Part shown: piece after piece, positions 7,734-19,953 of the stretch
Layout: each line of letters starts with the position of its first letter
Position numbering within the stretch: position 1 is the stretch's first letter
NCBI GenBank assembly: GCA_024742285.1
Contig: JANSYR010000001.1
Coordinates: 372,001-436,000, forward strand
DNA from: a bacterium
GTDB taxonomy: Bacteria > Myxococcota_A > UBA9160 > UBA4427
DNA: 64,000 nt
Direction of reading: 5' to 3'
Position numbers and translations under genes: made by a program
Notes under the pieces: model-generated
Databases searched by the model: none
Seen by the model: the letters and a program-made list of their open reading frames with translations, nothing else
Told to the model about the DNA's origin: nothing

Positions 7734-9587
7734 TCAGGACCGATGGACACGCCCGCGGCGGCGAAGCCCGACGAGGAACGCGAAGCCCCCGACGGCGACG
7801 CCAAGGCCGAATCCCGGTTCCGGCACCGAGGTGAACTGTATGGTCTCGCTCGGATTCCGCGGAACGGACACACCCGCGTTCCAGCGATAGTCGACCGCGT
7901 ACGGAGCCTCGACGACGAGGACCGTGTCCGGAACGGCGACGTCGGTCGTTCCGAGAGGAACCTCGCCGCCGTTCGGGTCGCGGAGGACGAGGCTCCCGGA
8001 CTCTGCGGGATCGCCCGGGAACGGCGCGCCGTCGAGCAGGAACGTCGGGACGACGGTCTTCATGGTCAGGTCGACCACGACCGTCTGATCGATGGCGAGC
8101 AGGGTGTCTTCGACCGCGTGGAATCCTTCGTTGCGCGGCACCATGATCGAGCCCGCCTCCCAGTCGTAGACGACGTCGTAGGATCCGACGACGACGCGCG
8201 GCGACGGCGTCGTCTCGTTCGTACTGCGGAGGTCGATCTCGTCCCCCGGCTCTGCGCCGACGAGGGTGAAGCGCCCCCGCTCGAGCTGGCTGGGCGGAAA
8301 GGGCTGACCGTCGACGAGCAGATCGGACGAGACCTGGATCGTCTCGATGTCGATCGCGACGGTTTCGTCCTCGTCGATCCGGACGCTGCTCGCGATCTTC
8401 GCATTCTTGTTTCCGGGCGCGACGGTCCAACCGATCACCCCCCGGTAGAAGACGTCATAGGTTCCCGCGATCAGCCGCCTGGTCGGCGGGGGCTCGTGGG
8501 TCGACCCGAAGTCGATCTCGTCCCCGTTCGGTCCGACGAGCACGATGTCGCCGCGCTCCGCCTGGGACAGAGGAGGAGGACTTCCGTCGAACGTGATCGC
8601 GCGACCCACCTCGAAAGTCGTCACCGGAACGGACAGGACGAGGAGCTGGCTCGGGTTGGCAGGGGGCTGGATGGAGACGTCTTCGAGGACCACCGCATTC
8701 GAGTTCGCCGGCACGAACCCGCCGCCCTGGAGACGCGAGTAGGCTACGTCATAGGTTCCGGCGATCACGACCCGCGACCCCGTCGGGGCGTTCGTCGGAC
8801 CGAAGGCGACCTCGTCGCCGCTCTCGAAGTCGACGAGCCGGAGCTCACCGCGCTCGGCTGAGGAGAGCGGAAAGGGCGCGCCATCCAGGCTGGGGTCGAG
8901 GAAGAGCGGATGGGCGGTCAGGTCGACGGTGTAGTTGCCGTCCCGACGGAGCGTGACCTCGTCGACGACGGCGTGCGTGTTCTGCGGAACGATCGAGCCG
9001 GAACGGTACGAGTAGATGACCTGGTAGGCCCCCGGCACGACGCGCGCGACGATCGGGGAGTTCGCGCCCTGGCCCAGCAAGAACTCCGCCCCTGAGTCGA
9101 CGTGGCGGAGCAGAAAGTCTCCCGTCTCTCCGACCGCTGCCGGGAAGGCCACACCGTTCAGCAGCAGGGTGAAGGTGATCTCGACCGTCGGAACATCGAT
9201 GTCGAACACGCCCGACGCGTCGAAGGCGACGTCAGAGGAAATCGGGGTCCCCGTGTTGATCGGAAGGGACCCGGACGAGAAGAGAAAGTCGTAGAGGACG
9301 CCGTACTCGCCCGGGACGACCCGAAGCGGGCCGTAGGTCTGCATGTTCGTCGCACCGACGGAGATGGCCTCCCCGCGCCGATCGAGGAGCGACAGGATCG
9401 CCACGTCCGCCGCCGAAGCCGGGGTTGGCACCCCGTCGACGAGGAAATCCCCCGAAATCTCGACGCTCGGCACGTCGACGTTCAGCACATGCGCGATCGG
9501 CACGATCTGCGCAGAGGCCCCCGACGCGGCCAGGAAGACGACGGCGAAGACGAAGCACGCAAGCGTTCGGCGGTGGCTCGAGCTCAT
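7734..9587 (-). CDS. PEP-CTERM surface protein with six tandem beta-domain repeats
   Basis: 617-residue exported protein. The signal peptide is residues 1-26 (cut at ASA-Q), and a PEP-CTERM signal closes the chain: VPEPG (588-592), a hydrophobic helix and RRRGR. Between them are six repeats of about 92 residues, each with a 'fdvd.p...f.l.G.pfP' opening, a 'sGdEi.lg.tn.p' middle and a 'v.GtYdVvY' close followed by 'vP.N'. Exosortase would cleave the C-terminus after translocation. The architecture suggests a structural or adhesive surface protein. The start at 9587 is chosen for the signal peptide; GGGAG lies about 11 bases upstream. Two stem-loops precede it. Confidence 0.85.
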   Translation of the reverse strand: MSSSHRRTLACFVFAVVFLAASGASAQIVPIAHVLNVDVPSVEISGDFLVDGVPTPASAADVAILSLLDRRGEAISVGATNMQTYGPLRVVPGEYGVLYDFLFSSGSLPINTGTPISSDVAFDASGVFDIDVPTVEITFTLLLNGVAFPAAVGETGDFLLRHVDSGAEFLLGQGANSPIVARVVPGAYQVIYSYRSGSIVPQNTHAVVDEVTLRRDGNYTVDLTAHPLFLDPSLDGAPFPLSSAERGELRLVDFESGDEVAFGPTNAPTGSRVVIAGTYDVAYSRLQGGGFVPANSNAVVLEDVSIQPPANPSQLLVLSVPVTTFEVGRAITFDGSPPPLSQAERGDIVLVGPNGDEIDFGSTHEPPPTRRLIAGTYDVFYRGVIGWTVAPGNKNAKIASSVRIDEDETVAIDIETIQVSSDLLVDGQPFPPSQLERGRFTLVGAEPGDEIDLRSTNETTPSPRVVVGSYDVVYDWEAGSIMVPRNEGFHAVEDTLLAIDQTVVVDLTMKTVVPTFLLDGAPFPGDPAESGSLVLRDPNGGEVPLGTTDVAVPDTVLVVEAPYAVDYRWNAGVSVPRNPSETIQFTSVPEPGFGLGVAVGGFAFLVGLRRRGRVHRS

Positions 9588-12372: not shown

Positions 12373-13920
12373 CTAGTGCGACGCCCCTCCGCCCACGTCG
12401 GCGTTGAAGGCCGCGTTGAGGATGTCGAACGCGTCTTCCCTCAGGAGCAGGCCCTGACGACGGAGGGAGAACGTGCTCCAGAAGACCTTGCCGAAGTAGG
12501 AGAAGCGCCTCGGGTAGAGCTCTTCCAGCTGCGCCTCGGAAAACGGAAAGACCGAACCGCTCAAGAAGCACGCGAGGGCGCCGAACTGATCCAGCGGCGG
12601 CGGCAGGGCGGGGTCCGCGAAGTTCATCGATCCATAGGTCGCGAGCGGCGCTTCCATCGAGGGGAGTCGGACGCCGCCGGTCACGTTGCCGAGCGCGTCC
12701 CGAACGAGCGCTCCGTCCTGATCGTCCATCACGCGACCGCGCGGGGCAGGCCAACCGAATCGCGCCTGTCGCTCCATGCGTTCCCAGAGCGCGTTCAACA
12801 CGTTGTTCACGAAGACCGGCCCGTCGGCGGTCGTGTTGATCTCGTTCGCGCAAAGATCCGCGAGCTGGACCGGAGCCGGACCGAAGACACCCGCCGGAAT
12901 GACCTCGATGTCGATGTGGACGGTGTTGTGCGCCCCGCCGGCCACTTCGTAGTACCGATAGGTCGGTGTGTCGGACTGACGGCCGAACACGTTGAAGCCG
13001 AGCGTCTCGAAATCCGTCTGCGTGATCAACTGGTAGACGGGGACCGGTAGATCGGTCCGAACGTTCGTATCGGGGAAGGCCAGGCGCGGGGTGCAGTCGG
13101 GAAAGGCCGGCGACTCGTCCTCGCCGCAGATCGGCCCTCCGTTGATCCTGCGCGCGCGGATCCCGGCCTGGACGAAGTAGCCGTCGGTGACGCCCGGCTC
13201 GTGGAAGGCGCTCGCGTAGGTGATGACGGACCCGGCCTGTTGGGACTCACCGGCCTGAAAGACTCGCTTGACGCGGTAGGCGGAAGGAATCGGCCCGGCT
13301 TCGCCGCCGTTCCTGAGGACGTTCGCGATCTGGCTCATCATCTCGTAGGCCAACCCGTCGTCGGGCAGGCTGAGCGTCGAGTATCGGCTCCCGCAGCTCG
13401 GCGGGAGGATCCCGAGCAGACGACACCCGCCGAGCAGATAGTCGAGTGCCTGGTTGGAGTTCGTCACGCCGACGTAGATGATCCCTTCGCGGGCGAAGTA
13501 TTCGGCGGACGGATCGTAGACGGGTGCCGTGTCGAAGCCGGCGGTCGAGTTCCACCACTCTACGACCACGGTTCCGTTGAACTTGTGCGGATCTGCGGGG
13601 CGGCGGACGATCAATCGCGTCTTGTAGGGAAGATCGGCCGCGATCTCGACCAGGTCCGTCGGTCCGGACGGGGGGTCGTTCTGGTAGTTGAACAGATCGG
13701 CCGCACCCTCGACGAAGAACTCCTCCTCGACGTAGGCCTGAGGCAGATCGGCGACCAGGCGCGTTCCTGGCACGAAGGCCTCGCCCTGTTCCGTCGGGGG
13801 GCGCGTCACCGTCACGGGCGCCGTCGGATCGGCGATGGCCGGAAGGGCGAACGCTACGCCGAGCCCGAGGAGTATCGGGACGAGCAGCGCGATGGTGGAG
13901 TCGGAACGAAAGCGGAACAT
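12373..13920 (-). CDS. Secreted alpha/beta-hydrolase-domain protein (PF20091-like)
   Basis: 515 residues with a signal peptide (about 1-28, 'VLGVAFALPAIAD' region). The body matches large actinobacterial/proteobacterial 'alpha/beta hydrolase domain' proteins: an N-terminal beta sandwich ('TRLIVRRPADPHKFNGTVVV'), the elbow 'VFQAGESQQAGS' with a candidate nucleophilic Ser, and a late 'GGAHNTVH' giving a candidate catalytic His. Six or more Cys suggest disulphides outside the cytoplasm. The start at 13920 has a textbook AAGGAGG six bases upstream. Likely an esterase or amidase acting on an environmental substrate, and possibly co-expressed with the LLM oxidoreductase. The specific reaction is unknown. 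Confidence 0.78.
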   Translation of the reverse strand: MFRFRSDSTIALLVPILLGLGVAFALPAIADPTAPVTVTRPPTEQGEAFVPGTRLVADLPQAYVEEEFFVEGAADLFNYQNDPPSGPTDLVEIAADLPYKTRLIVRRPADPHKFNGTVVVEWWNSTAGFDTAPVYDPSAEYFAREGIIYVGVTNSNQALDYLLGGCRLLGILPPSCGSRYSTLSLPDDGLAYEMMSQIANVLRNGGEAGPIPSAYRVKRVFQAGESQQAGSVITYASAFHEPGVTDGYFVQAGIRARRINGGPICGEDESPAFPDCTPRLAFPDTNVRTDLPVPVYQLITQTDFETLGFNVFGRQSDTPTYRYYEVAGGAHNTVHIDIEVIPAGVFGPAPVQLADLCANEINTTADGPVFVNNVLNALWERMERQARFGWPAPRGRVMDDQDGALVRDALGNVTGGVRLPSMEAPLATYGSMNFADPALPPPLDQFGALACFLSGSVFPFSEAQLEELYPRRFSYFGKVFWSTFSLRRQGLLLREDAFDILNAAFNADVGGGASH

Positions 13921-14366: not shown

Positions 14367-15029
14367 TCAGCCCTGCGTCGTCGAGAGACGAGACACGATC
14401 TTGCGAACGCGACGACCGACCGCTCCCAGCGTCACGCCCGGCCGCGAGACGATCCGAACGAGGAAGCGGAACAGCGACCCGGGACAGAGGACGTCCACGA
14501 TCAGATGGATTCTCGGCTCATCCGCATCGTTGAACGCCTCGTGGGGCAGTCGATTGTCGAACCACCAGAGCTCCCCCTCACGCATCCGCACCTCTTCCGA
14601 CTCGGCTCGAAGCCGACTCCCGAGCGGACTCCGCAAGACCAGGTGGTAGCGGTCGCGAAGGTGGTAGTAGAGGCCGCGGTCGACGTGTTGGTACACACGT
14701 CCATGCGGGCGCAGCCGGACCAGGGCAGCGCGGCCGACGCGACCGTGCGAACGACGCGTGAGCCGATCGACGAAGGCCTGGACCATCGGGAGCCGTTCGG
14801 CGGCGTCCGTCGGGTGACCGAGGTAGCCGAGCGGACGGCGGCGACGTTCGTCACGAAAGTTCGCGGCGCCCGGATGGAGCGTGATCGCGACCGTCTCCGT
14901 CTCGCGCTGGACCGCCACCTCGGCCTGGCGACGCGGGTCCGCGGTCCAGATCTCGGGGTGCGCATCGATCTCCGAGAGGATCGCGGCGATGTCGACGTCG
15001 AATTCGATCTTACGGAAGCGAGTCGACAT
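14367..15029 (-). CDS. Aspartyl/asparaginyl beta-hydroxylase-family 2OG-Fe(II) dioxygenase
   Basis: 220-residue double-stranded beta-helix enzyme (PF05118 type). The core motif is 'VYQHVDRGLYYHLRDRYHLVL': His115 and Asp117 are candidate iron ligands, His163 in 'NRLPHEAFN' the distal one, and Arg173 (DEPRIHLIVDV) a candidate 2-oxoglutarate contact. It should hydroxylate an Asp/Asn side chain or a related small molecule or lipid chain. It is transcribed away from a tandem pair of ATP-grasp ligases starting at 15187, with 157 bp between starts, suggesting shared regulation. The C-terminus is basic ('GRRVRKIVSRL'). The physiological substrate is unknown. Confidence 0.82.
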   Translation of the reverse strand: MSTRFRKIEFDVDIAAILSEIDAHPEIWTADPRRQAEVAVQRETETVAITLHPGAANFRDERRRRPLGYLGHPTDAAERLPMVQAFVDRLTRRSHGRVGRAALVRLRPHGRVYQHVDRGLYYHLRDRYHLVLRSPLGSRLRAESEEVRMREGELWWFDNRLPHEAFNDADEPRIHLIVDVLCPGSLFRFLVRIVSRPGVTLGAVGRRVRKIVSRLSTTQG

Positions 15030-15186
15030 GGGCGTGGCGTCTACTCCTGTGGTGCACCCCGAGCACGAGACCGTGCGGAGCGTAGCCGAGCGCCCAGCGC
15101 TAGAATCGGCATCGAAGCGGCAACGTCGTGACGGACCGTCCCCACCGGTCGATGGAGCGAACGTGCGGCCGCTCGAATGCGACTCG

Positions 15187-16407
15187 ATGTCTACGCTCCC
15201 CCCCGTCATTCTGTTGGGCAACGACTGCCTGACCGGTCTGCAGATCGCGCGCATCCTCTGGCGTCGCGGAGTCCCCGTCTTCGGACTCGCCGATCGCCCG
15301 GACTCGCCCTACTGCCGAAGCCGCGCGATCGTCCGAACCGTGGCGGACGGGGGCGAGGATGCGCTCGCCTCCCTTCTCGCGCAGCTTCGAACCCGATACG
15401 AGGGGGAGCCGGCCGTGCTTCCCTGCACGGACCGCGCTGCGTTCTTTCTCGCGGAGGCCGCAGGCCGTCTGAAGGGCGGAAGAGCGCGCATCGTCCCTCC
15501 GGCAGCGACCCTCGATCGACTCGGTGACAAGGCCGAGCTCCATCTGCTGGCGCAGGATTCGGGCTGGCGCGTTCCGCAGACGTTGATCGTGCACGACGAG
15601 CCCCAGCTCGCACTCGCGGCGGATCAGCTGGACCTGCCGCTCGTCGTCAAGCCGCCGCGGCGAACCTCCACCTGGCTCGCGGCGAGCGGAGATCGCAAGG
15701 TCTGCCGCTTCGAGGATCGCGAGACGCTGCTGGAGGAAGCGCCTGCGCTGCTGGCGACGACTGACGAGCTCGTCCTCCAGGCGTGGATCCCGGGTTCAGC
15801 CGAGTCGAGTCGGGAGCTCACGATCCTCTATGATGCCGACGCGAAGTACGTCGCTTCGGTCGTGATGACGAAGGTTCGGCAGTGGCCTCCGGACATCGGC
15901 ACGAGCTCGATGGCCCGGGAGATCCGGGACGACGAGATCGTCGCGCACGGCAGGGCGCTCCTCGAGTCCCAGTCCTTCGTCGGGCTCGCGCAGCTGGAGT
16001 ACAAGCGCGACGAGCGGGGGGGGCCGCCGGTCCTGATCGAGATCAACCCCGGTCGGGCGACGTTGAATCAGCCACTCTGCGAAGCGGCGGGCGTCGAGAT
16101 GACGTGGGCCTGGTACTGCGCCGCCACGGATCGCCCCCTCGAGCCTGGCACCCTGGACGTGGTCCATCCCGGCGCCGCATGGGTTTGCTGGAAACGCGAC
16201 CTGCGGGCGGGCTTCCTTGCGTGGCGCAACGGCGAGATCTCGCTTCGTGACTGGTCTCGGTCCTACCGCGGAACGCGCTGGTCGGCGGACGTCTCGATCG
16301 ACGACCCCCTCCCCTCCCTTGTGGATCTCGCCCGGAAGGCCGTTTCGCTGCTCGGGCGGCGATGGCGGCCGATGACCGAGCGAGCGGCGGCCGGGCCGAC
16401 GCCATGA
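15187..16407 (+). CDS. ATP-grasp ligase, first of a tandem pair
   Basis: 406-residue member of the predicted ATP-grasp carboligase group (COG3919-like). The N-terminal Rossmann-like lobe opens with 'VILLGNDCLTGLQIARILWRRG'; the ATP-grasp lobe has the lysine segment 'LPLVVKPPRR' and the Mg-binding end 'VLIEINPG', followed by 'VCWKRDL'. Such enzymes join a carboxylate, via acyl-phosphate, to an amine or thiol. The ATG at 15187 is used because homology with its neighbour starts there. Its stop overlaps the next gene's start by four bases (ATGA), so the two are translationally coupled. Partner candidates: the divergent beta-hydroxylase. The product is unknown. Confidence 0.8.
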   Translation: MSTLPPVILLGNDCLTGLQIARILWRRGVPVFGLADRPDSPYCRSRAIVRTVADGGEDALASLLAQLRTRYEGEPAVLPCTDRAAFFLAEAAGRLKGGRARIVPPAATLDRLGDKAELHLLAQDSGWRVPQTLIVHDEPQLALAADQLDLPLVVKPPRRTSTWLAASGDRKVCRFEDRETLLEEAPALLATTDELVLQAWIPGSAESSRELTILYDADAKYVASVVMTKVRQWPPDIGTSSMAREIRDDEIVAHGRALLESQSFVGLAQLEYKRDERGGPPVLIEINPGRATLNQPLCEAAGVEMTWAWYCAATDRPLEPGTLDVVHPGAAWVCWKRDLRAGFLAWRNGEISLRDWSRSYRGTRWSADVSIDDPLPSLVDLARKAVSLLGRRWRPMTERAAAGPTP

Positions 16408-17579
16408 ACAACGAGGGCCGAACGCTCGTCGTTCTCGTCGGCATCGACCGCCTCCTCGGTCTCCAGCTCGCGCGCATTCTCTGGCGGCGGGGCGACGACG
16501 TGGTCGGCGTCGCCGTCGACGAACGCTCGCACTACTGCGCGACCCGGGCGGCGAATCGAATCCTTCCCGCTGCGCCGTTCCTCGAAGATCCCTGTTCGGC
16601 GCTCGCCTCGCTCGGCGCCGAAGCAGGCCGTCGGCCGATCCTCATCCCTTGCACGGACGAGTTCGTGTGGTGGCTCGACGCGAATCGGACCGCCCTCACG
16701 GAACACGCCGACTTTCTTCTCGCCGACTCCGAGAGTCTCGAACGGCTCTCCGACAAGGCGCGTTTCTGCGAAGAGGCGGGCGCGAGGGGCGAACCGATTC
16801 CACGCACGCGAATCGTGACCGATCCAGCGGAGCTGGACGACGCCACGGAAGCGCTCGGATTTCCCCTGATCGTCAAGCCAGCTCGTCGTTCGCCCGAGTG
16901 GATGCGCGCGACCGGCGGAGCGAAGGTCCTGAAGATCGAAGACGGCGCCGGGGTCGCGAGTCGAGTGCGACCCCTGTTCGGGGTGGGCGTTCCGATCGTG
17001 CTCCAGTCGTGGGTCCCGGGCGGCGACGACTGCATGTATTCAGTCTTCGTCTGCCTCGATCGGGACCATCGACCGGCGATGCCGCCGCTGGTCGTGCAGA
17101 AGCTGCGTCAATGGCCACTCGAGACGGGCGTCGGCTGCCTGGCAAGGCAAGTGGAGGCGCCAGATCTGGCGGAGACCGCGCTCCGCTTCCTCGCCGAGCG
17201 CGAATTCGTCGGGACGGGTTCTCTCCAGTTCAAACGTGACGCCTCGACCGGACGTTTCCTGCTGATTGAGATGAACACGCGGTTCGCACTCAGCTTTCCG
17301 CTCTGCGAGGCCTCCGGGTTGGAAGCGACCCGGATCCACTGCCGATTGGCGGCGGAGGAACAGGTGACGGCCGAGACCGAGATCCCGATCCCGGGACGAA
17401 AATGGATCTGCTGGAAGCGAGACCTCGCTTCCGCGTGGGCACTTCGGCGTCACGGGCGACTGTCCGTTGGCGAGTGGATCCGGTCGCTCGCGGGACCGAA
17501 GCGATCGGCGGATCTCATGCTGGCCGATCCGATGCCCATGCTTCGCGACGCCCTCGGACGGATCACCGGACGACGCTGA
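16404..17579 (+). CDS. ATP-grasp ligase, second of a tandem pair
   Basis: 391-residue paralog of the preceding gene, sharing 'QLARILWRRG' near the N-terminus, 'LIVKPARR', 'KLRQWP' and 'ICWKRDL' at matching positions, and ending the ATP-grasp core with 'LLIEMNTRF'. The two have clearly diverged (for example Asn-Pro versus Asn-Thr after the metal-binding acid), which suggests different acceptors or sequential ligations rather than redundancy. The start at 16404 overlaps the upstream stop as ATGA. The stop at 17579 faces the convergent spermidine-synthase-like gene. The function is inferred from fold only. Confidence 0.8.
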   Translation: MNNEGRTLVVLVGIDRLLGLQLARILWRRGDDVVGVAVDERSHYCATRAANRILPAAPFLEDPCSALASLGAEAGRRPILIPCTDEFVWWLDANRTALTEHADFLLADSESLERLSDKARFCEEAGARGEPIPRTRIVTDPAELDDATEALGFPLIVKPARRSPEWMRATGGAKVLKIEDGAGVASRVRPLFGVGVPIVLQSWVPGGDDCMYSVFVCLDRDHRPAMPPLVVQKLRQWPLETGVGCLARQVEAPDLAETALRFLAEREFVGTGSLQFKRDASTGRFLLIEMNTRFALSFPLCEASGLEATRIHCRLAAEEQVTAETEIPIPGRKWICWKRDLASAWALRRHGRLSVGEWIRSLAGPKRSADLMLADPMPMLRDALGRITGRR

Positions 17580-17718: not shown

Positions 17719-19953
17719 TCAGCGCGCCCGCAGGCGAGCCTGGAGCAGCATCCGCGTATTCCGCTGGCTCAGCTGCGTCGACCAGCCGATACCGGCTGCC
17801 GACCCTCGCTCGAAGCGATCGCGGCCGTACGAGAGGCGCTGGTTGTCGTCGGTTACCCGGGGCCCGCCCGCGCTGATCGCGCGGATCTCGTCGGCGTCGA
17901 GCAGAATCTGCTTCTCGATCTGGGCGAGTGAGTAGTCGAGCGGAATCGTCGCTTCGGAGAAGTCCCACGGCTCGAGGCCGCCGACCAGGACGCCCGTCTT
18001 CGTCTCGGGATCCTGCCACAGGCGCGTGTAGGGGAAGAGCTCGGCGAAGCTTCCGATGATCGCCAACGTGTCCGTCTCGCTGATCAGATGAATCGGGAGC
18101 CACTGTGCGGCGACGCCGCCGATCGCGAGACGATCGCGCACGAGCTCGTAGAACTCGGTCGAGTAGAGGTGGTTGCTGCCCGCGAAGTTGGGGGGCATCG
18201 GCTCGAGCGTGATCAGGTCGAAGCGTTCTTCGGTCCGGCGCAGGAACGCGCGGCCGTCCATCACGGTCGTCTCGACGCGTGCGTCTTCGAGGACGCCGTC
18301 GTTCGTCGAGAAGAGCGGAGCCGCGTCGAAGACGGCGGCGTTCAGATCCACGACGTCGAGGTGTCCCGGGCCGTGGTCCCGGACGGCGTCCGCGGTCTGC
18401 CCGGTCCCCATGCAGATCACGAGGGTTCGTTCGAGGTTCCTCGCAGCCAGGGCCGGGAGATGCCCCATCCAGGGCATGTAGCTGCTCGAGCCGTGTTCGA
18501 GCGACGCGATGAAGCCGTCGATCACGAGCAGGTGGGTCCCCTCGACGTCGACGACCCAGGTCGTGGCGTCCGCGCCTTCACGCACGAAGTCGACCTTGCC
18601 CTCTTCGGGCCAGCCGTGGCCCTGGACGCGATAGCGACCCGAGCTCTCCTCCATCGAGAGCGCCGCGCCGAGCCCGACCACCGCGGCGAGCCCGGCCGCC
18701 ACGACGCTCCGGCGTGTGCGGGACGGGTTGAGCAGCGTCGCGCCGCAGATCGCGAGCCCGACCAGCCAGCTGGCCCGGGTCGCACCGATCGAAGGCAGGA
18801 GCAGGAATCCGGCGACCAGCGAACCGATCACGGCCCCCGCCGAGTTCACGATGTAGAGCCGACCGCTCCCGCTCGTCGAGGCGTGGGTCGCGAGCAGAGA
18901 AGGAAAGATCGTTCCGAGGAGCGCGGCGGGGATTCCGGTCAAGGCCAGGACCCAACCGAACCGCTGGACTCCGAGCTCGACCGAGAAGAGCGTGGGCGCC
19001 ACTGATTCGAAGAGGGTCGGGACCGTGAATCGATCGAGGGCATCGATCAAGGGCGTCGCGACCAGGATCGCCCCACCCGCCACGGGCAGGACGAACGCGA
19101 CCACGTCCCGATCGCGACGACGCGCGAGGCTCGCCAGGGCGGCGCCGATCGAGAGGGCGGTCAGGAACGCCGCGATCGTGACGGCAAACGCCTCGGTCGT
19201 CGACTGCAGCGCGGCGCGAATCGATCGGAACCACGAAACCTCGAGGGCGAAGATCGCCGCGCCGCTCAGGAAGGCGAGAGCCAGCACGCGCGGCGCGGGC
19301 CAGGCGACGTCGCGCTCCACTTCGGCGTCGTCCCCTTCGCCTCCGACCCATAGCCCAAAGACACCGACGGCGAGATTGAGCGCCGCCGCGACCCAGGCCG
19401 TGCGGGTCACGCCCACTTCCGGCAGGACCAGGAAGGTCACCGCCAGGATCCCGACGACGGCCCCGGCCGTATTGAGCGCGTAGGCCGTCGCGACGCTGGT
19501 CCCCGCGCGCCGCGCCGCCGGCGCGATGATCGGGATCGTGGCGCCCATGGCGGTCGCGGGAATGATCAGGATCACGAACGTGCCGGCGAGACGGACGAAC
19601 GGGGCGAGCGCCGGCGCGCTCCGCCAGACCCCGACGTCGAGCGAGGCCAGACCGGCCAGCAGCGGCGGAACGGCCAGGCTCGCCAATCCGATCACGACCT
19701 CGGCGATGCCATAGGCGCGGAGCGGTCGCTCGAGTGCCCCCGCGCGGGCGAGCCGCGCCGCCAACCAGCCGCCGAGACTCATGCCCGCCATCATCGACGC
19801 CAGAGTCACCGCCGTCCCGTAGGCCGACACACCGAGCGCGAGCGCCGCGTGGTGCTGATAGAGGACTTCCCAGCTGAGACCGGCCGCCCCCGAGACGAGA
19901 ACGGCCGCGAGCAGTGGGAACGCGGTGAGCGGCGGACGCGCGGATTCGGACAC
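17719..19953 (-). CDS. Membrane-embedded spermidine-synthase-like fusion protein
   Basis: 744-residue fusion. The first ~430 residues hold about 12 hydrophobic helices in two similar halves ('GAAGLSWEVLYQHHAALALG' and 'AIFALEVSWFRSI'), as in 'fused MFS/spermidine synthase' proteins. The C-terminal ~300 residues are a Rossmann-fold aminopropyltransferase-like domain: 'LVICMGTGQTADAV' as the nucleotide motif, 'DVVDLNAAV' as the acidic strand, and 'FDLITLEPMPP' in place of the usual 'YDVII.D..DP'. The catalytic Asp of polyamine synthases is therefore a Glu-Pro here, so true spermidine synthesis is doubtful. It may process or export a small molecule; a link to the convergent ATP-grasp genes is possible but unproven. 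Confidence 0.82.
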   Translation of the reverse strand: MSESARPPLTAFPLLAAVLVSGAAGLSWEVLYQHHAALALGVSAYGTAVTLASMMAGMSLGGWLAARLARAGALERPLRAYGIAEVVIGLASLAVPPLLAGLASLDVGVWRSAPALAPFVRLAGTFVILIIPATAMGATIPIIAPAARRAGTSVATAYALNTAGAVVGILAVTFLVLPEVGVTRTAWVAAALNLAVGVFGLWVGGEGDDAEVERDVAWPAPRVLALAFLSGAAIFALEVSWFRSIRAALQSTTEAFAVTIAAFLTALSIGAALASLARRRDRDVVAFVLPVAGGAILVATPLIDALDRFTVPTLFESVAPTLFSVELGVQRFGWVLALTGIPAALLGTIFPSLLATHASTSGSGRLYIVNSAGAVIGSLVAGFLLLPSIGATRASWLVGLAICGATLLNPSRTRRSVVAAGLAAVVGLGAALSMEESSGRYRVQGHGWPEEGKVDFVREGADATTWVVDVEGTHLLVIDGFIASLEHGSSSYMPWMGHLPALAARNLERTLVICMGTGQTADAVRDHGPGHLDVVDLNAAVFDAAPLFSTNDGVLEDARVETTVMDGRAFLRRTEERFDLITLEPMPPNFAGSNHLYSTEFYELVRDRLAIGGVAAQWLPIHLISETDTLAIIGSFAELFPYTRLWQDPETKTGVLVGGLEPWDFSEATIPLDYSLAQIEKQILLDADEIRAISAGGPRVTDDNQRLSYGRDRFERGSAAGIGWSTQLSQRNTRMLLQARLRAR

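Follow-up and report, generated by a model that had tools for sequence, protein, structure and literature searches.

Amidation of glucuronic acid in the capsule of Campylobacter is the task of an ATP-grasp domain, that of Cj1438 (PMC11800379), and in the biosynthesis of phosphonoalamides two ATP-grasp ligases, PnaB and PnaC, act in turn (PMC11867202). ATP-grasp enzymes are also found in company of oxygenases, as in the E-64 pathway, which combines an Fe/2OG oxygenase, an ATP-grasp enzyme and an amide synthetase (PMC12568646), and operons made of an oxygenase and one or two ATP-grasp ligases had been predicted (PMC2922099). Mini-clusters of ATP-grasp and oxygenase genes are of a kind already known.

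The locus studied here belongs to a 64,000-nucleotide stretch of Myxococcota DNA (the window), and encodes a dioxygenase and two putative amide-forming ATP-grasp ligases. These ligases share the ATP-grasp fold with the C-terminal amidoligase of Cj1438, which lies in a polysaccharide locus and forms its amide on a uronic acid; however, Cj1438 represents a TupA-like branch fused to a GT2, whereas those of the window are separate, unfused proteins with no glycan genes near them, the two being likened by fold and context. The presence of two free-standing ligases in one small cluster recalls PnaB and PnaC, and the likeness reaches phosphonates in a Pontiellaceae relative whose ligase follows a PEP mutase, but the window genome holds no PEP mutase above the cut-off, and a phosphonate link was therefore rejected for the window. 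The association of an oxygenase with an ATP-grasp ligase is shared with the E-64 pathway, although the latter is fungal, its ligases are described as another family and its second bond is made by an ANL enzyme (PMC12568646).

The three open reading frames described in an earlier note on this DNA are present. The dioxygenase gene (14367..15029, minus strand) most likely starts at the ATG at 15029, giving a protein of 220 aa, rather than corresponding to a 295-aa ORF from 15254, and it faces the gene of ligase 1 (15187..16407, plus strand, 406 aa), for which the ATG at 15187 is the best choice. Ligase 2 (16404..17579, plus strand, 391 aa) starts at the ATG at 16404, and the ATGA stop/start overlap between both ligases was located at 16404..16407, as had been noticed. 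The GC content at codon positions 1, 2 and 3 was gene-like for the three genes. Values of GC3 were 0.80 for the dioxygenase, 0.83 for ligase 1 and 0.78 for ligase 2, the window averaging 0.86 (sd 0.03), so the dioxygenase lies around 2 sd and ligase 2 around 2.8 sd below the mean, which hints at a foreign origin of these two genes, short of proof. Neither a sigma-70-type consensus nor a peptide ORF was found in the 157-bp gap between the divergent starts (15030..15186), in agreement with the lack of a peptide precursor in the earlier reading, and such a precursor was rejected for the gaps, as none was called. Downstream of ligase 2, after a convergent gap of 139 bp, lies the gene of a fused MFS/spermidine-synthase family membrane protein (17719..19953, minus strand; NF037959, 87 bits versus a cut-off of 40). 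Genes for a histidine kinase, a luciferase-like oxidoreductase, Abhydrolase_10 (at 12373), DUF1592/DUF1552 and amidohydrolase proteins are further neighbours, and within the window no glycan genes were found near the ligases. A large repetitive protein without matches in Pfam and NCBIfam searches is also encoded in the window (7734-9587, minus strand), and a PEP-CTERM-like tail was seen by eye at its end (VPEPGFGLGVAVGGFAFLVGLRRRGR).

The ligases are paralogous, as proposed, with 36% identity over 380 aa. Ligase 2 matched CPSase_L_D2 (E = 3e-8); for ligase 1 no Pfam model matched and the NCBIfam ATP-grasp matches were weak, those of the two ligases including the D-Ala-D-Lac and Ddl families. 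The structural model of ligase 1 (pLDDT 73.6, poorly modelled from around residue 335) showed the expected ATP-grasp fold (VIA Z 25.4, rmsd 3.6, 328 aligned; Foldseek E around 1e-14), so both proteins belong to the ATP-grasp superfamily, ligase 1 by its predicted fold and ligase 2 by CPSase_L_D2. The L-amino acid ligases BL00235 (3vot) and RizA (4wd3), biotin carboxylase and PurK were among the top structural matches of ligase 1, whose fold is as near to carboxylases and PurK as to amide ligases; BL00235 and RizA have the same fold but only 13-18% identity to ligase 1. The best PDB match by sequence was a CPSase (E = 3e-16). This likeness to characterised ligases is remote, and therefore the acid and amine partners are not readable from the sequence.

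Regarding the metal-binding end, for which a clear divergence had been claimed, the motifs do differ, EINPGR in ligase 1 (within LIEINPGR) and EMNTR in ligase 2 (within LIEMNTR, one residue shorter than E-x-N-x-G-R), but in both the metal ligands E and N are retained, as is an R. The E-x-N-x-G-R form was present in seven of the eight clade members with a readable motif, ligase 2 being the only exception, and EMNTR is the usual biotin-carboxylase/CPSase form, common among other ATP-grasp enzymes. Consequently, the NPG/NTR difference is no sign of a dead enzyme, and a degenerate metal site in ligase 2 was rejected. The C-terminal sequences, WVCWKRD in ligase 1 and WICWKRD in ligase 2, follow the W-x-x-W-KRD pattern that, together with E-x-N-x-G-R, marks a ligase clade poorly covered by Pfam. 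Nothing useful was found in the literature on COG3919 or on ATP-grasp enzymes within exosortase loci.

This clade comprises nine ligases from six genomes of two phyla, Myxococcota and Kiritimatiellota, with a support of 100/99 in a tree of 15 sequences. Ligase 2 diverges earlier than the group of ligase 1 and a Pontiellaceae enzyme (94/94), which makes the pair look old rather than the product of a recent tandem duplication. Ligases 1 and 2 are each 43% identical to one Pontiellaceae ligase, in such terms that the closest relative belongs to a different phylum. Among 91 genomes of the class, matches at E<=1e-50 were detected in eight, and clade members in three only (the window genome, G008 and G061). 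The clade was found in 3 of 379 genomes of the phylum (E<=1e-70, four candidates per genome scored) and in 3 of 288 genomes of the class to which the Pontiellaceae genome belongs.

Five of the seven other clade ligase loci sit among polysaccharide genes. The Pontiellaceae contig G379:C18 carries two clade ligases, and between them genes for a Wzy/O-antigen ligase, a GT2, an export protein and Wzz; one ligase is near a polysaccharide deacetylase, a sugar transferase and a flippase (L085), and the other comes immediately after a 2-hydroxyacid dehydrogenase and the PEP mutase (394 bits versus a TIGR02320 cut-off of 320). In G548 (L151) the ligase is flanked by phosphomannomutase, SDR and Gfo/Idh genes; in G406 (L152) it overlaps a more distant ATP-grasp gene, followed by a deacetylase and a MatE flippase; in G008 (L048) it adjoins a GT2; and in contig C300 of G061 (L088) a GT2 is nearby and a CDP-alcohol phosphatidyltransferase adjoining. 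More distant ligases were also found in polysaccharide loci (L051, L052, and plasmids of Bradyrhizobium and Cytobacillus). Most clade relatives are thus in polysaccharide loci, whereas the window ligases are not, and in both of its phyla, Myxococcota and Kiritimatiellota, the clade goes with polysaccharide loci of the cell surface, in one case beside a phosphonate-forming enzyme. A tested clade member could reveal how amide decorations of such glycans arise.

Some of these loci show arrangements of their own. The row of 2-hydroxyacid dehydrogenase, PEP mutase and clade ligase, consecutive within the Pontiellaceae polysaccharide locus (L150:12024-15101), points to a possible phosphonate-amide decoration of a glycan, perhaps via phosphonolactate. 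The overlapping pair at L152:8435-11019, one clade member and one distant ATP-grasp enzyme, lies in a polysaccharide locus of the Kiritimatiellota class. A phytanoyl-type dioxygenase was noticed by eye in L091, but it had no family match and was not counted as evidence.

The dioxygenase matched PF05118, the aspartyl/asparaginyl beta-hydroxylase family (E = 1e-19, 71 bits, cut-off 22.6), and so belongs to this family. It retains the H115-x-D117...H163 residues and the 2-oxoglutarate residues R127, H129 and R173; in an alignment of 21 sequences (the dioxygenase and 20 relatives from viral contigs) H115, R127, H129, H163 and R173 were invariant, and D117 was present in at least 90%. With its iron and 2-oxoglutarate residues invariant or nearly so, it is likely an active Fe(II)/2OG enzyme, judging from the sequence. 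In its structural model (pLDDT 81) the nearest enzyme was proline 3-hydroxylase (Z 15.4, rmsd 2.6, 144 aligned), nearly tied in Z score with a nucleoside-pathway beta-hydroxylase (15.1), cis-4-proline hydroxylase (14.2) and AspH (14.1). Although the family and the core residues are shared with AspH, LpxO, OlsC and the proline hydroxylases, the window enzyme is shorter than these and lies far under the equivalog cut-offs of LpxO (lipid A hydroxylase, NF033391, 21 versus 500 bits) and OlsC (ornithine-lipid hydroxylase, NF052565, 20.2 versus 450 bits), both of which were rejected. It is probably a small-molecule hydroxylase, which may or may not feed the ligases. Its closest relatives (43-44% identical), from the genus-mate G007 and from a Sulfitobacter plasmid, are 57% identical to one another and are encoded by or near an ABC exporter of around 560 aa (the exporters being 32% identical); no ligase was found near either of them by tblastn, so the closest kin sit in another context. 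The rows of dioxygenase relative and homologous exporter lie at L142:9992-14290 in Sulfitobacter and at L049:426-2665 in the Myxococcota genus-mate, and a gene annotated as DUF1611 is also present in the Sulfitobacter locus.

The reading that we favour, though with chances that we consider about even, is that of two carboxylate-amine (amide-forming) ATP-grasp ligases, of a rare clade found mostly in surface-polysaccharide loci, that would decorate sugar acids or amino sugars or else make a small amide. The two amide-type ligations of the earlier note are a sound proposal, given the predicted fold, the intact metal ligands and the relatives in cell-surface polysaccharide loci. We infer that each ligase would use ATP to turn a carboxylate into an acyl phosphate and hand this to an amine, and that it would thereby most likely decorate sugar acids or amino sugars, or else yield a small amide conjugate. 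The ATGA overlap, through translational coupling, suggests that one step comes after the other or that both serve a single product. Acting on an amino-acid-like small molecule, the dioxygenase would carry out a hydroxylation with iron and 2-oxoglutarate, and the only hint that it may feed the ligases is its facing position. A sugar acid or small acid would be amidated for a surface glycan or a small metabolite; against this reading speak the position of the window ligases, stranded away from glycan genes, their remote likeness to characterised ligases and a fold as near to carboxylases and PurK as to amide ligases. In this respect, ATP-grasp enzymes are known with glycans as targets and also with the peptide of the cell wall or the head groups of lipids, and ligases acting on the latter two, like D-aspartate ligase, would agree with the weak matches to the D-Ala-D-Lac and Ddl families and with the CDP-alcohol phosphatidyltransferase gene that adjoins both G061 ligases (L087:2858-4847 in C66 and L088:5486-7551 in C300); the glycan context of most clade members speaks against it, and we hold this target to be very unlikely.

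Whether the three genes act together is a separate matter. The dioxygenase could oxidise a small acid or amino acid, which the ligases would attach through a pair of amide bonds to make a pseudopeptide without any NRPS, with the same logic proven for E-64 and predicted for the operons cited above; this agrees with the divergent 157-bp arrangement and the ATGA coupling, with the nearness of the dioxygenase fold to free-amino-acid hydroxylases (AspH almost tied) and with the low GC3 of the dioxygenase and ligase 2, compatible with a joint arrival. However, the conserved co-occurrence of a PF05118 gene with tandem ligases was not borne out, and the outcome which the earlier note had named as refuting its proposal, that the three genes do not stay together across related genomes, is the one that came up: among the genomes searched, the trio was found in the window genome alone, the only one in the class holding both clades, and tblastn detected neither a PF05118 gene nor an MFS/spermidine-synthase gene near any of the seven other clade ligases. 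The G061 and Pontiellaceae genomes have no PF05118 gene anywhere, and G008 has two, on contigs other than that of the ligase, whose 5.5 kb show its neighbourhood in part. In addition, the nearest dioxygenases accompany an exporter instead, and no transporter, aminotransferase or resistance gene adjoins the trio in the window. Such a mini-pathway is doubtful, and its wider form, a three-enzyme NRPS-free route to a hydroxylated pseudopeptide or a glycan decoration, is somewhat more so. The membrane protein, put forward as a fourth partner, was rejected as its homologue is absent from every other ligase locus, and is probably outside the set. These comparisons give no support to a conserved system of three genes; dioxygenase and ligases may act jointly, to judge from their arrangement alone, and a shared pathway of the three is only a guess. 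It may equally be true or false that the ligase pair and an unrelated dioxygenase arrived separately and share just the divergent gap, a view compatible with the amide-ligase reading. The patchy spread of both (three of the 91 genomes of the class have the dioxygenase at E<=1e-18, and three of the 379 of the phylum a clade ligase at E<=1e-70) agrees with it, as do G007, with the dioxygenase and no ligases, G008, with a clade ligase and no such dioxygenase, and the closest ligase in another phylum; against it, genes whose starts face each other across 157 bp are often under common regulation, and GC3 is low in both parts.

No relative of the ligases was found in viral contigs, and a viral origin of these was rejected. 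PF05118 relatives of the dioxygenase are encoded by 35 IMG/VR viral contigs (L107-L141), several of them being proteins of around 346 aa with an additional C-terminal part.
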